From: Chitinivorax tropicus
GTDB lineage: Bacteria > Pseudomonadota > Gammaproteobacteria > Burkholderiales > SCOH01
NCBI RefSeq assembly: GCF_014202905.1
Contig: NZ_JACHHY010000015.1
Coordinates: 1 to 64,000 of the forward strand
DNA length: 64,000 nucleotides
Direction of reading: 5' to 3'
Part shown: positions 11,438 to 41,025 of the stretch, in pieces
Numbering within the stretch: the stretch's first letter is position 1
Layout: the number at the start of each line of letters is the position of its first letter
The notes under the pieces: generated by a model
Databases searched by the model: none
Told to the model about the DNA's origin: nothing
The model's input: only the letters and a program-made list of their open reading frames with translations
Made by a program: the position numbers and the translations under genes

Positions 11438-12751
<1,314 letters not shown>

Positions 12752-12839
12752 CTAGATTGCACGATTCTCGCAGAAATGCCGGTGCATCGGCAATCTAGGC
12801 ATCCAGATCGCCGAGTGGGCCATTTCAGCATGAAGTTCT

Positions 12840-13742
12840 TTAGCGACAGGATAGAATTCCCCTGATCTTGCCATCCAGACTCTCACCAGATGGCAAGTTC
12901 GGGCCGTTGATAAATCTTGATGAAAATTCATCCAGTTTGAATTTTAAGGTTCTGGCCTCGGTAAGTGTCCTGGTGGTGCCGGACACCGGAAGAGGGCCAA
13001 GATCGTATGTGTGCACTGAAATGACATCTTTTCCACCCTCTTGAACAAGTGGGATGTCATTGCCAATAATCTCTTCAAACCGCTGGTAAACAGGTTCAGG
13101 TACAATAAAGTACAAACCCTGTTTCACAAGCCTTGATTTTGAATAAACCAGACTTTTTCTGATGATTTGTGGTATCAAACGCTTGTGAACATTAGCCCAG
13201 TTCAAACCATGCCTAGAAGGCGGAATGTTCATTTTCTGATCACGTGCCGCGTACCACGAGTCGCGATAGTTTCCAGTAATATCAATGCTCTGGACCTCAA
13301 TGCCAACGTAGCTGGTGAGCGCGCCATCAACAATATGAGCTAACACCCAATCCATGCTCATTTTGCTCAATTTAACTTCTTTTCCAGAGTTCTGGCCAAG
13401 CGCAACAACACAATCCAATGACGTGCCAGTTTCAGTTACCTTCTTGATATATTCATCAAAAAGCAAAAATTGAGCATCACCGAAAACTTCACTACTGACC
13501 CGCTTGATGGTTGCATAACAATCTGCATAAAGTCTATTTGGGCAGATAATGACATTCTGACCACCGTTGGATACAGAACAGGTTCCATAGCAAATGGTAT
13601 TGGTATGGTCATATTTTGAACATGCCTTTCCAATGAAAGGGCATGCATTCAGTTGCCAGAACTGTCTGGCTATTTGTGTGATATCAGTTGGGTTGTATCC
13701 GAATATTTCAACTAAAGAGCGTGACTTTGATATTTTCGCCAT
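12840..13742 (-). CDS. NotI-family type II restriction endonuclease
   Basis: A 300-residue protein resembling NotI-type endonucleases. An N-terminal cysteine cluster (ACPF Cys34, Cys41, CYGTC Cys51/55, ICPNR Cys67) resembles the Fe-Cys4 motif of NotI. A variant PD-(D/E)XK site is visible as Asp131 (MDWVLAHI) and Glu149-x-Gln151 (YVGIEVQSIDITGNYR), with Gln replacing the usual Lys as in NotI. It would cut a GC-rich site that the paired methylase protects. Its ATG overlaps the methylase stop as TAATG, so translation is coupled. The sequence is AT-rich (20 of 60 bases GC at 13441-13500), which suggests transfer. The recognition site is unknown. Confidence 0.75.
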   Translation of the reverse strand: MAKISKSRSLVEIFGYNPTDITQIARQFWQLNACPFIGKACSKYDHTNTICYGTCSVSNGGQNVIICPNRLYADCYATIKRVSSEVFGDAQFLLFDEYIKKVTETGTSLDCVVALGQNSGKEVKLSKMSMDWVLAHIVDGALTSYVGIEVQSIDITGNYRDSWYAARDQKMNIPPSRHGLNWANVHKRLIPQIIRKSLVYSKSRLVKQGLYFIVPEPVYQRFEEIIGNDIPLVQEGGKDVISVHTYDLGPLPVSGTTRTLTEARTLKFKLDEFSSRFINGPNLPSGESLDGKIRGILSCR

Positions 13743-14899
13743 TACGAAATCAACCTTTTGATTGTCTCTCCAATTGCCTTAGCCATCAATGGCGGAACCG
13801 CGTTGCCCACTTGTTCAAATTGCTCGGTCAAACTTCCCGTGAAAATATAATGATCTGGAAAGCTTTGGATTCGGGCCGCTTCTCTTACTGAAATCGCTCG
13901 ATCTTGAGTGGGATGGAAGAAGCTACCCCAGTGTGGATCGCATTTGGTCAGGATTGTTGAGCACAACTCATCTGGGTGAAGCCTGCCGTACCGCTTTGTA
14001 TGGTCGCTCCTTCTTGCTCGTTGCAAGCCTGCAGGTAACAATTCGTGTGGAATGTCCCTCCAGCTTCCACCTTGCGGAATATGCTTCAGTCGCTCAAGGT
14101 TGGCTTTTCCAAGTTTCGCGCAGCCATGATTGAAGATTTTTGTTGAATCTTCTCGAAGAATTTTCTGAAATTCAGATTGTGGTGGTTTGGTATATTCAAC
14201 ATCATCAATCAGCTGCCCAAGAGCAAGCTCTGGCAAGTCAGAAAGTGCATCCCAAACTGTAGTTTTTTCCTTTAATCTCGTTGCAAGCAACGGGGGAACT
14301 TGAATGCAAAGTTCTTTTGCCCCAGCAAAATTTGCAATAGCTGTTGCATTTCGTGTTGGTTCTGGAAACTCAATCTTTGCGCTGTCTCTGAGTGCAATGA
14401 AGATGGTTCTGAAGCGCATTTGTGGAACACCATAATGACCTGCAAATAGAATTCGATGATCAACGGTGTAACCCATCTTTTCGAGATGGGCATAAATAGC
14501 ACTCACGGCAGTGCCTTTTCCAAGTGAGACGATCCCTGGAACATTCTCAATCAAAATGGCTTTGGGCTTTAGAATATCGGCAATCCGCAAATATTCTTTA
14601 AATAGATGATTTCTTTGATCATCCAGGGTTCGGATTGGCGCATTGATTGAAAAGCCTTGGCACGGCGGCCCTCCAGCAATCAAATCCAGTTCGCCTGGTT
14701 TCAGCCCAGTCAATTTTAGAATATCTATCTCTGATAGCTTGCGAATATCATTCGTTACAACATGTGCGTGAGGGTGATTTTTTGCGAAAGTGGCCGCATA
14801 AGTGGGGTGAATGTCTGAACCTAATATTGACTGAAAGCCCGCCATGTTCAAACCACAAGTCAAACCACCTGCACCTGAGAAAAAATCTACCAGTTTCAT
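13742..14899 (-). CDS. DNA (cytosine-5-)-methyltransferase
   Basis: A 385-residue C5-cytosine methylase with all main motifs in order: I DFFSGAGGLTCGL (5-17, AdoMet binding), IV GGPPCQGFS with the catalytic Cys80, VI ENV (118-120), VIII VPQMRFRTIFIA, and X near the C-terminus (QVGNAVPPLMAKAIG). It methylates cytosine in the site cut by the endonuclease encoded next. The methylase comes first, so the cell is protected before the nuclease is made. The low GC content contrasts with serS and rarA on either side, consistent with acquisition of the pair as a unit. Confidence 0.93.
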   Translation of the reverse strand: MKLVDFFSGAGGLTCGLNMAGFQSILGSDIHPTYAATFAKNHPHAHVVTNDIRKLSEIDILKLTGLKPGELDLIAGGPPCQGFSINAPIRTLDDQRNHLFKEYLRIADILKPKAILIENVPGIVSLGKGTAVSAIYAHLEKMGYTVDHRILFAGHYGVPQMRFRTIFIALRDSAKIEFPEPTRNATAIANFAGAKELCIQVPPLLATRLKEKTTVWDALSDLPELALGQLIDDVEYTKPPQSEFQKILREDSTKIFNHGCAKLGKANLERLKHIPQGGSWRDIPHELLPAGLQRARRSDHTKRYGRLHPDELCSTILTKCDPHWGSFFHPTQDRAISVREAARIQSFPDHYIFTGSLTEQFEQVGNAVPPLMAKAIGETIKRLIS

Positions 14900-14959
14900 C
14901 TAATTAGTCCAAATCCTGCCTACATCTATCAAACTTCAAAATTTCCTGATTTTGAAGAC

Positions 14960-16264
14960 TTACTTCTTACCCGCTTTTTCATCCCACTTCCGCAGAAGAG
15001 CCAGTTTTTCACCAATTTTGATCTCAAGACCTCTTGGTGTTGGTTGATACCAACCAGGCTCTTCTATGCCGTCAGGAAGATAGGTTTCACCTGCAGCATA
15101 GGCATTCGGTTCATCATGGGCATAGCGGTATTCGTGCCCATAGCCTAGTTCCTTCATCAGTTTGGTTGGTGCATTGCGCAGGTGGACGGGTACTTCGCGG
15201 CTTTTGTCTTGTTTGACAAAGGCTTTTGCCTGGTTGTAGGCGTTGTAGCCCGCATTGCTTTTGGCGGCGACAGCCAGATAGATCACCGCCTGCCCGAGTG
15301 CCAATTCACCTTCAGGACTTCCCAGTCGTTCATAGGTCAGTGCGGCATCGTTGGCGATCTGCATGGCTCTTGGGTCGGCAAGCCCAATGTCCTCCCAGGC
15401 CATGCGGATGATCCGCCTGGACAGATAACGCGGATCAGCACCGCCATCCAGCATCCTTGTTAGCCAGTACAATGCTGCATCGGGATGGGAGCCTCGAACC
15501 GATTTGTGCAGGGCGGAAATCTGGTCATAAAAATTGTCTCCGCCTTTGTCAAAACGCCGCGAATTCAAGGTCAGGGCATTTTGGATGAAGTCAGCGTCAA
15601 TTTTCTGGATACCTGCTGTGCTCGCTGCTGTTTTGCACTGTTCGAGCAGGTTCAAGAATCTTCTTGCGTCGCCATCGGCATAGCCAATGAGGGTGTCTCT
15701 TGCCACCTCATCGAATGTCAGGTCAGGGAGCGCCGTTCTCTGTGCGCGTGCGAGCAAGTCCTTCAGCTCATCTTCTGTCAGCGATTTCAGCACATAGACT
15801 TGGGCGCGTGACAGCAAGGCTGAGTTCACTTCAAAAGAGGGGTTCTCCGTTGTGGCGCCGATGAATGTGACCAAGCCGCTTTCCGCATAGGGCAGCAACG
15901 CATCTTGTTGGGACTTGTTGAACCTGTGAATTTCATCTACGAACAGAATGGTATGCCTGCCTTGCGCAAGGTTCTGCTCTGCTTGTTCCATGGCGGCTCG
16001 GATGTCTTTGACGCCGGAGAACACTGCTGATAGGGCGATGAATGCGCAGTCGAAGGCGGTTGCGGTCAGCCTGGCAAGCGTTGTCTTCCCAACCCCTGGC
16101 GGGCCCCAGAAAATCATGGAGTGTGGTTTGCCAGATTGAAAGGCCAGCCTCAGTGGCTTGCCCTGGCCAAGCAGGTGAGACTGGCCGATGACTTCATCCA
16201 AGGTCTTGGGCCGGAGGGCCTCGGCCAATGGTGCTACAGGTGCTTGCGAGAACAGGTCAGCCAT
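14960..16264 (-). CDS. rarA: replication-associated recombination protein A (RarA/MgsA) AAA+ ATPase
   Basis: 434 residues, the usual length. The N-terminus (PLAEALRPKTLDEVIGQSHLL) leads into Walker A GPPGVGKTTLARL (around 54-66), Walker B FVDEIHRF and sensor 1 IGATTENPSF. The C-terminal tetramerisation domain follows (RGSHPDAALYWLTRMLDGG, EDIGLADPRA). RarA acts at stalled replication forks. The lolA-rarA-serS order known from enterics is kept, except that an R-M cassette separates it from serS. A 284-base gap to lolA upstream holds no gene I can support. Confidence 0.95.
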   Translation of the reverse strand: MADLFSQAPVAPLAEALRPKTLDEVIGQSHLLGQGKPLRLAFQSGKPHSMIFWGPPGVGKTTLARLTATAFDCAFIALSAVFSGVKDIRAAMEQAEQNLAQGRHTILFVDEIHRFNKSQQDALLPYAESGLVTFIGATTENPSFEVNSALLSRAQVYVLKSLTEDELKDLLARAQRTALPDLTFDEVARDTLIGYADGDARRFLNLLEQCKTAASTAGIQKIDADFIQNALTLNSRRFDKGGDNFYDQISALHKSVRGSHPDAALYWLTRMLDGGADPRYLSRRIIRMAWEDIGLADPRAMQIANDAALTYERLGSPEGELALGQAVIYLAVAAKSNAGYNAYNQAKAFVKQDKSREVPVHLRNAPTKLMKELGYGHEYRYAHDEPNAYAAGETYLPDGIEEPGWYQPTPRGLEIKIGEKLALLRKWDEKAGKK

Positions 16265-16548
16265 GCGTCACCTTGCCTGGGCGGTGGGGCTGAGCGGTAG
16301 CCTTTTCTGATCGCTGTTTTGCAATATGTATGGTGCCTTTGCCGAAAAGGCAGGCTGCATCGGCTAACACGCTGGTGTGCTGATACGATTGCGGCAGAGC
16401 CCGCGGGGTTGTCGGATGTGGATTGCTTGATTTGCCAGTCAAGTGCAGAAACGGGCCAAGGCGAGCCGGTAGCTGACCCATGGTGCCAGCCAGTGGGCCA
16501 AGCTGAGTCAGCCTGACCGGAACTGGCTGTGGTTGCAGTTGGTGCAGA

Positions 16549-17166
16549 TCATTCACTGATTACATCCACGCCTTTGGGGGGCACGAATTTGAATTGGTCT
16601 GCGGACAGCTTTGGGTTGCGTTCCAATTTGTTGAATCGGATCACGGTGGTCTGGCCAAAGTTGTCTTTCAGCTCCATGACCACCAGCTCGTTCTTCGCAA
16701 AGCCCATTTTGACGCTTTGGAAGGTGGATTCGCTGGATTTGGGCTTGGCATCCAGCCAATCCAGCCCGTCTTTGCTGCCCGCATCTTTCAGGACATAGGC
16801 TTTTTCGATGTCATTGCTGCCCGCCAGCAATGCAGCAGGGCTGGAGCCCAGAGCTTGATCGAGTTTTTTGACGGTGACCTGCTCGATGTCTTTGTCGTAC
16901 AGCCATAGCTTCTGGCCGTCACCCACGATCACTTGATCGTAGGGTTTGGTGTAGGTCCAGCGGAATTTGCCGGGGCGCTGGATCATCACATGTCCACTGG
17001 CCTGCTGGCTGTTGGCAGCACGTTGGCCGGTGACCTGTTGCGTAAAATCGGCCTGCAGTGAATCGGACCCGGCCACAAACGCCTTGAGTTGTTCAATGCC
17101 GCCAGCCCAGCTTGTTGGGCTGTTCAGCAGCAGGGAAAGAAGTAGGGGCAATGTATAAGGTTTCAT
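16549..17166 (-). CDS. lolA: outer-membrane lipoprotein carrier protein LolA
   Basis: 205 residues with a signal peptide (MKPYTLPLLLSLLLNSPTSWAG). The mature part shows the LolA features: AFVAGSDSLQADFTQQV, a SGHVMIQRPGKFRWTYTKPY core, and DKDIEQVTVKKLDQAL. LolA carries lipoproteins through the periplasm from LolCDE to LolB. Several lipoproteins that may depend on it are encoded in this window (bamC, mltA, the Ala-rich lipoprotein). It is followed on the same strand by rarA. Confidence 0.94.
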   Translation of the reverse strand: MKPYTLPLLLSLLLNSPTSWAGGIEQLKAFVAGSDSLQADFTQQVTGQRAANSQQASGHVMIQRPGKFRWTYTKPYDQVIVGDGQKLWLYDKDIEQVTVKKLDQALGSSPAALLAGSNDIEKAYVLKDAGSKDGLDWLDAKPKSSESTFQSVKMGFAKNELVVMELKDNFGQTTVIRFNKLERNPKLSADQFKFVPPKGVDVISE

Positions 17167-40745: not shown

Positions 40746-40839
40746 GGAGAAATGGCCGAGAGGTCGAAGGCACTCCCCTGCTAAGGGAGCATACGGGCTA
40801 AAACTCGTATCGAGGGTTCGAATCCCTCTTTCTCCGCCA
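40746..40839 (+). tRNA. tRNA-Ser (GCT)
   Basis: The seven-base acceptor stem GGAGAAA/TTTCTCC, the T-loop GGTTCGAATCC, a long variable arm typical of tRNA-Ser, and an encoded CCA end (40837-40839) are visible. The anticodon GCT is at 40780-40782 in loop CTGCTAA, reading AGC and AGT codons. It is the first gene of a three-tRNA cluster. Confidence 0.97.
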
Positions 40840-40846
40840 ACATAGC

Positions 40847-40923
40847 GCACCCGTAGCTCAGCTGGATAGAGTACTTGGCTACGAACCAAGGGGTCGGGCG
40901 TTCGAATCGCTCCGGGTGCGCCA
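40847..40923 (+). tRNA. tRNA-Arg (ACG), copy 1
   Basis: A 77-base tRNA with acceptor stem GCACCCG/CGGGTGC and encoded CCA. The anticodon ACG (40881-40883) is normally converted to ICG and reads CGT, CGC and CGA. It begins seven bases after tRNA-Ser. Confidence 0.97.
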
Positions 40924-40948
40924 GTTGAAAAAGCATGTTCTTGAAAAT

Positions 40949-41025
40949 GCATCCGTAGCTCAGCTGGATAGAGTACTTGGCTACGAACCAAGGGGTCGGG
41001 CGTTCGAATCGCTCCGGATGCGCCA
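40949..41025 (+). tRNA. tRNA-Arg (ACG), copy 2
   Basis: Identical to copy 1 except for one acceptor base pair: stem GCATCCG/CGGATGC, so position 4-69 is T-A instead of C-G. Anticodon ACG and encoded CCA are the same. It probably arose by tandem duplication and is followed by a terminator. Confidence 0.97.

Follow-up and report, generated by a model that had tools for sequence, protein, structure and literature searches.

Gene organization of the lolA–serS region

The window, i.e., the whole stretch of DNA that was analysed, comprises 64,000 nucleotides of contig NZ_JACHHY010000015.1 from Chitinivorax tropicus. Within it, lolA, rarA, a restriction–modification (R-M) pair, and serS follow one another on the minus strand, in the order that an earlier sequence-only reading had given. 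The features of the region, from lolA to serS, are the following:

16549..17166, minus strand: lolA, intact native gene, left flank (81% protein identity to lolA of the same-genus genome G001)
16343..16544, minus strand: 5′ piece of the native (A-type) rarA, decayed (local alignment to nucleotides 16–214 of G001 rarA)
14960..16264, minus strand: replacement (B-type) rarA, complete, a foreign allele (identities and tree placement)
14934..14957, no strand: 9-bp inverted repeat CTTCAAAAT..ATTTTGAAG between rarA and the methylase gene (sequence scan)
13742..14899, minus strand: predicted C5-cytosine DNA methyltransferase of the R-M pair, 385 aa (Pfam, PADLOC, motifs)
12840..13742, minus strand: predicted NotI-family type II restriction endonuclease, 300 aa (Pfam, PADLOC, profile against PDB)
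12735..12840, minus strand: 3′ tail of the native (A-type) rarA, decayed, extending between the endonuclease stop codon and the former rarA stop (blastn to G001 rarA)
11438..12721, minus strand: serS, intact native gene, right flank (89% protein identity to serS of G001)

Both open reading frames of the segment 12,840–14,899 are intact on the minus strand, and the methylase gene precedes the nuclease gene, the two frames overlapping as TAATG within ...TTCGTAATGGCG...; these gene calls agreed with the sequence-only reading, as did the AT-rich character of the pair. The two genes together have a GC content of 44.0% versus 56.6% for the remaining window, a value that low was reached in 3 of 620 sliding windows (2060 bp, step of 100), and a count by hand returned the 20 G or C among 60 bases reported for positions 13,441–13,500. 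The whole serS gene has a GC content of 56.2%. The inverted repeat between rarA and the methylase gene is a possible hairpin or operator candidate.

Methylase and NotI-type endonuclease

The endonuclease matched the Pfam NotI family (PF12183) with 28.8 bits (cut-off 22; 1e-6) and the PADLOC model REase_II with 1.9e-108, and no match was obtained with NCBIfam. When a profile of nine endonuclease members was compared to the PDB, NotI was the sole match at E ≤ 1 (2.3e-17). The nuclease is a clear relative of NotI, as had been proposed, and not a protein dissimilar to NotI homologues. Residues D131, E149, and Q151 are invariant in 9/9 aligned members and align with the catalytic residues D160/E182/Q184 of NotI. 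The Glu-x-Gln motif pointed out by the sequence-only reading is therefore present in its NotI form and no oddity; the accompanying remark that Gln151 stands in place of lysine describes no departure, NotI having Gln184 at this position. The NotI-like cysteine cluster described earlier was also recovered: C34, C41, C55, and C67 are invariant in all nine aligned members, with C34, C55, and C67 facing NotI cysteines in both alignments and C41 in one alignment only. These four residues are candidate ligands of a NotI-type iron site, the cysteine-bound iron site of NotI presumably being their counterpart. A PD-(D/E)xK fold was sought in an AlphaFold2 model of the endonuclease based on six sequences; the model was poor (mean pLDDT 47.9), and Foldseek gave no match at E ≤ 0.001 for it.

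The methylase matched the Pfam DNA_methylase family (4.1e-65) and the PADLOC model MTase_II (6.8e-133), and it has the GGPPCQ and ENV motifs. At the level of sequence, these results confirmed that the pair consists of intact, adjacent genes for a predicted C5 methylase and a predicted NotI-family endonuclease. By analogy with NotI, the two enzymes would be expected to methylate and cut one and the same site, probably a GC-rich palindrome.

Native rarA remnants and the foreign rarA allele

In G001 and in two genomes of the same family (G003 and G004), lolA, rarA, and serS are contiguous, with no R-M genes, and the aligned end of rarA lies 20, 27, and 24 bp from serS, respectively. The lolA and rarA genes overlap in these three genomes, and 284 bp lie between them in the window. 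This gap aligned to nucleotides 16–214 of G001 rarA with a score of 68, against 30.8 ± 5.2 for 200 single-base shuffles (best shuffle 49; z = 7.1), while the remaining G001 rarA, which served as control, gave z = −0.5; by inspection, Gly27-Gln28 is in register in this 5′ piece. On the other side, the segment from the endonuclease stop codon to serS matched nucleotides 1205–1335 of G001 rarA and the adjoining spacer with 74.4% identity over 133 bp (blastn, E = 4.6e-20), and the native rarA tail starts exactly at the endonuclease stop codon. With native debris on both flanks, the block formed by rarA, the methylase gene, and the endonuclease gene therefore occupies the former middle of the native rarA, of which codons about 70 to 402 are missing. 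The sequence-only reading had placed the cassette exactly between rarA and serS, a position that does not hold, the native rarA being the broken gene and the intact rarA apparently belonging to the insert. It had also suggested comparing the rarA–serS gap in relatives; the gap is indeed free of R-M genes there, but in the window it contains the remains of native rarA. A plain insertion between rarA and serS was rejected in view of a foreign rarA with native rarA pieces on both sides.

The intact rarA of the window shares 73% protein identity with G001 rarA, compared to 89% for serS and 81% for lolA, and its best matches among 399 genomes of the order came from other families, namely G222 (92%), G178 (91%), and G134 and G103 (both 90%). 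Two rarA trees were calculated, with 73 and 72 rows, the second without the long-branch rows L144, L145, L157, and L227. In both trees, a 100/100 clade united the three native rarA genes from the family of the window and excluded the window rarA. Judging by identities and tree placement, the intact window rarA is foreign, and it appears to be part of the insert. It was placed in a single group of 15 rows (94/82, short of the tool's star) together with the second rarA genes, described below, of G222, G678, and G449. This group stands apart from the host rarA of G678 and also includes rarA genes of G134, G178, G103, G013, and G007, in which no native remnant was found; since the group holds rarA from remnant-free genomes, a plain chromosomal rarA donor is possible. 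The second rarA genes of G326 and G122 sit elsewhere in the second tree, and those of the five genomes form no single clade. The idea of B-type rarA as one mobile clade was dropped, as many other rarA genes intermix in both trees. The rarA of G325 pairs with the element rarA of G678 at 100/100, and the next open reading frame behind the G325 gene is on the other strand. Plasmid rarA was rejected as the source, the copies on the three plasmids examined having 63–66% identity and other settings. Two of these three copies adjoin uvrA and formaldehyde genes.

In a simpler event, the R-M pair would have inserted close to the rarA 3′ end and duplicated a long stretch of its target, and the duplicate would then have decayed. 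Such an event would correspond to a mode that is seen for mobile R-M systems, and a 3′ piece of rarA does follow the endonuclease gene. However, this piece resembles the native allele of the genus and the intact rarA does not, a native 5′ piece lies on the other side too, and the intact rarA is xenologous in the trees. We consider this explanation very improbable, and it was rejected as contradicted by the rarA tree.

The same anatomy in other genomes

A native rarA 5′ piece, then a complete second rarA, and then cargo were found in five genomes belonging to three other families (G222, G122, G326, G449, and G678). The left break is common to all five and lies within each rarA 5′ piece at about codon 118, with HRFNK on one side and AV[NK]H[YF][IL] on the other. 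Junction scans covered 687 different genomes (399 with at most 3 mismatches, and 294 plus 18 with a slightly wider pattern and at most 2), and matches with 0–1 mismatch occurred in 5 of the 687, precisely these genomes, always before a complete rarA. Most matches with 2–3 mismatches may be background because a reversed control pattern matched too (8 versus 18 matches in the 399-genome scan, 2 versus 11 in the 294-genome scan). G696 and G551, two genomes with matches of this kind, had no rarA, and in G273 rarA was on a different contig than the junction match.

The 5′ piece of G222 (codons 1–118) has 96.6% DNA identity (341/353) to rarA of the same-genus genome G031, with mismatches scattered up to the break. 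Behind the break, G222, G678, and G449 have similar leaders, and the likeness is weaker in G122 and G326; G326 has also lost part of its 5′ rarA piece. In G449, native rarA pieces flank a B-type rarA with its cargo, the right piece beginning at about codon 190, and no integrase was recognised. Only the right-hand native rarA tail was found in G435 (E = 2.5e-15). No native rarA 3′ half was found in G222, nor at the right end of G122, the right ends of these two elements either meeting a contig end or showing no native 3′ half. Viral contigs searched with rarA, the integrase, the endonuclease alignment, and the junction pattern yielded no relatives and 0 exact pattern matches. In E. coli, a 2501-bp lolA-rarA-serS query matched 5374 of 5426 genomes, in each of which one place covered 80% or more of it, and 52 genomes gave no match; the query was covered by a single piece in all 25 matches listed, so among these matches E. 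coli shows no sign of such elements.

Organization of the G678 element

The native rarA of G678 is interrupted at CACCGCTTTAATAAAG, and from CGCTTCAACAAATCG onward its reading frame continues to the stop codon, with amino acids 1–118 on the left and RFNK to the stop on the right. The intervening element measures 12,308 bp core to core, and its core copies, CGCTTTAATAAA on the left and CGCTTCAACAAA on the right, are equal at 10 of 12 positions and read CGCTT(T/C)AA(T/C)AAA, i.e., codons for R-F-N-K. No 9-mer was shared exactly between the flanks. The leader contains TTGTGCA repeats, and such repeats are located near both element ends. Just inside the left end lies the second rarA, which is complete, of another lineage, and 89% identical to the window rarA. 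It is followed 9 bp behind, on the same strand, by a gene encoding an Eco29kI-type endonuclease (RE_Eco29kI, 7.4e-70) and then by a C5 methylase gene (1.4e-61). On the other strand are genes for MobC (MobC_2, 1.1e-8) and a possible relaxase, a weak match (0.0065) below the cut-off. A tyrosine integrase gene (Phage_integrase, 1.5e-12, 48.1 bits, cut-off 27.1) is situated at the right end, against the native rarA 3′ half; a helix-turn-helix-like gene, assigned by inspection, and other small open reading frames complete the element. The GC content is 46% for the element rarA and 41% for the R-M genes, compared to 59–62% for the host. From this organization, G678 contains a complete integrase-bearing element in rarA, which is probably mobilizable. 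Relatives of its integrase were found in 20 of 368 genomes (G678 included), with at most 35% identity, and on plasmids and phages with 21–28% identity among the matches listed. Because the integrase relatives are distant where searched, the case for an element family is built on a single complete copy plus several incomplete ones.

Cargo genes and relatives of the R-M pair

In the five readable cases, the window, G222, G122, G678, and G449, the element rarA is followed at −4 to +60 bp by a gene of the same orientation. According to the family search, this defence-type cargo consists of R-M genes in the window and G678, of AbiJ (1.4e-26; Abi_C, 1.7e-22) in G122, of Hp1 (1.3e-61) and Hp2 (4.7e-19) in G222, and of a SMEK-domain protein (SMEK_N, 2.6e-41; PADLOC Aga_REase model, 4.6e-42) and a HATPase gene in G449, where a third cargo gene gave no match. 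No recognisable defence gene was detected in G326, which instead has a transposase-like open reading frame (by inspection).

Regarding relatives of the window pair, six loci, all in metagenome-assembled genomes, carry both genes adjacent (6/6; L035 ends at a contig end), with identities of 64–73% for the endonuclease and 73–82% for the methylase, and no match to either was found in the searched genomes of the same genus and family. The relatives are AT-rich compared to their own flanks in 6/6 loci measured. In L033, L034, and L037, the pair lies between ruvC and ruvA, and in L032 directly behind ruvC, with no rarA accompanying it; judging by these neighbourhoods, the vicinity of ruvC is a second favoured place of the pair. 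Relatives with the same cassette at the same site and a host-like GC content, which would have spoken against an inserted cassette between rarA and serS, were not what these searches returned, the placed ones being AT-rich and behind ruvC. L033 and L034 compared to L037 show 98% identity for the methylase and 95–98% for the endonuclease. Between L032 and L037 (identical in sequence to L101), the values are 94% and 91%, versus 80% for ruvC and 76% for yebC; with methylase and endonuclease more alike than ruvC and yebC, the pair therefore also moves alone. More distant NotI-family genes beside a methylase gene occur on plasmids in 32 records, of which 20 are typed as conjugative (the methylase was checked in two), and also in one phage record.

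The mobility of the pair without its neighbour gene would fit two independent events in the window, a rarA element with other cargo arriving first and the NotI-type pair entering later on its own, as it has behind ruvC. That no fixed R-M system is tied to the element rarA, the other four cargos being different, speaks for the same sequence of events. Against it, the remnant of the native rarA sets in precisely with the stop codon of the endonuclease gene, and wherever cargo could be read in the other elements (four of four), it immediately follows rarA in the same orientation. On balance, two separate arrivals seem unlikely to us.

Proposed origin of the window cassette

Taken together, the window cassette is likely to be the eroded form of an integrative, probably mobilizable element for which rarA serves as attachment site and which carries a spare rarA and a changeable defence cargo. 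It is also fairly probable that a family of such elements hits one internal codon of the replication-restart gene rarA and brings a whole rarA, so that the allele is swapped, the slot behind it serving as a dock for exchangeable anti-phage systems. In the boldest form of this proposal, the element RarA would itself be adapted to the element or its cargo. As for the mechanism, the integrase would recombine the circular form of the element into the host rarA, within its conserved Walker-B-region codons and at the proposed recombination site CGCTTYAAYAAA, and would thereby split the host gene after about codon 118. Thanks to the complete rarA that comes with the element, the host would not lose RarA, and the defence genes, which range from a 4 bp overlap to 60 bp behind rarA, would be read together with it. 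Different elements would bring different defence cargo. In the window, later deletions would have removed the integrase, the mob genes, and the greater part of the disrupted native rarA, leaving rarA and the NotI-type R-M pair as working genes.

The window itself departs from the complete element in several respects. Integrase and mob genes are absent from its cassette, in which only the methylase and endonuclease genes lie between rarA and the native tail, and an element leader is unrecognisable upstream of the window rarA (z = −0.1 to −0.3 against the leaders of G678, G222, and G449), for which reason the codon-118 break is not seen there. As the leader is not detectable, we call the cassette a probable relic of a rarA element and not a full member; with no left junction, integrase, or mob gene to be recognised in it, its descent from such an element is what we infer.

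The missing leader would suit homologous or homology-facilitated recombination, in which a fragment carrying rarA and the R-M pair from an ordinary donor chromosome replaced most of the native rarA through crossing over or end-joining within conserved parts of the gene, native tails being left behind and no integrase having acted in the window genome. The breaks do fall in conserved parts of rarA, the left one at HRFNK (five genomes) and the right one at codons around 402–412, close to WYxPTPRG (window, G326, and G435). In addition, remnant-free genomes have rarA genes of the 15-row group. These points are set against the recurrence of one left junction in five genomes from three families, three of them with a similar non-rarA leader, a complete integrase-bearing element at that very site, and native G222 sequence that is unmixed up to the junction. 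We regard such recombination as an improbable origin of the cassette and favour descent from an integrative rarA element.

Significance and comparison with known systems

If the integrative origin is true, decay would leave a foreign rarA and a stray defence system behind, and this would account in part for how patchy the rarA phylogeny of the order is. The elements would be a concrete vehicle for solitary defence systems found inside housekeeping operons without adjacent mobile-element genes; they would make the lolA-rarA-serS region a place to seek new defence genes in this bacterial order, and rarA an unsafe phylogenetic marker within it. No published element integrating in rarA was found in the literature searched, which largely omits subscription journals, nor was the variant in which an internal site is rescued by a complete carried gene, and the text of PMC10121019 contains no ycaJ, rarA, serS, or ruvC.

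Several known systems share individual traits with the locus described here. NotI (PDB 3bvq/3c25) and the NotI-family endonucleases resemble the window endonuclease in that the profile match covers most of the chain and that the D-(x)n-E-x-Q residues and N-terminal cysteines align, whereas NotI has 383 aa and the window protein 300 aa. Regarding cargo, AbiJ-like abortive-infection genes located on Acinetobacter plasmids have about 70% DNA identity to the AbiJ gene of G122. A 31-kb predicted island of Ralstonia solanacearum EP1 (PMC5080846) likewise combines RarA, R-M, and phage genes in one island, but the available part of that source gives a bare product list, with no word on integration into rarA or a replacement copy.

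Bringing a whole spare, as the rarA elements would do, is another way of coping with integration into a useful gene. Elements in trmE and dusA rebuild the end of the gene that they enter. As far as the available portions of PMC8409611 and PMC4482086 describe them, SGI1 in trmE and the islands in dusA are alike in their site-specific integration into a protein-coding gene; unlike the rarA elements, which supply a whole gene and leave the old one in pieces, they use the trmE 3′ end and the dusA 5′ end. According to the accessible sections of PMC5704250, most integrative and mobilizable elements (IMEs) with a tyrosine integrase use the 3′ end or, more rarely, the 5′ end of a gene, which remains undisrupted, and internal sites mean a disrupted gene. 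The G678 element is similar to the IMEs described in those sections in having one integrase at its end, a mob gene, type II R-M cargo, a protein-coding target, and core repeats at its ends. It differs from them in that the rarA site is internal (codon about 118 of 434) and that a complete second copy of the gene is carried.

Variation of rarA and its neighbourhood

Within one genus (loci L213-L218 of genomes G430-G435), rarA shared 82-83% identity with the window rarA in three genomes and 72-73% in three, with both identity classes occupying the same lolA-serS place; in G435, the native rarA tail was retained ahead of serS. In two other genomes, G400 (locus L219) and G103 (locus L084), ORFs of protease-like appearance on inspection by eye were situated immediately behind rarA and represent possible further candidate cargo. 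The window itself contains:

14934-14957: inverted repeat with 9-bp arms and a 6-base loop, lying within the gap that separates the rarA stop from the methylase start
40746-41025: cluster of three tRNA genes (one Ser-GCT, two Arg-ACG)

The repeat may form a hairpin or serve as a putative operator of the R-M genes.

Other locations of the NotI-type pair and of rarA

NotI-type M-R pairs were also located at ruvC in metagenome-assembled genomes, spanning several genera:

L033, 3257-6289; L034, 3147-7448; L037, 3258-7512: pair flanked by ruvC and ruvA
L032, 3256-5873: pair behind ruvC

When these loci were compared, the high identity of the pair was not matched by the neighbouring ruvC. This place in the Holliday-junction operon is a second favoured insertion spot of the pair.

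In Aeromonas caviae and Comamonas testosteroni, rarA and uvrA occur on plasmids, where they adjoin formaldehyde-detoxification genes:

L234, 7995-13907; L235, 7995-12007: plasmid loci with rarA, uvrA, and formaldehyde-detoxification genes

This plasmid rarA is another example of a passenger rarA.
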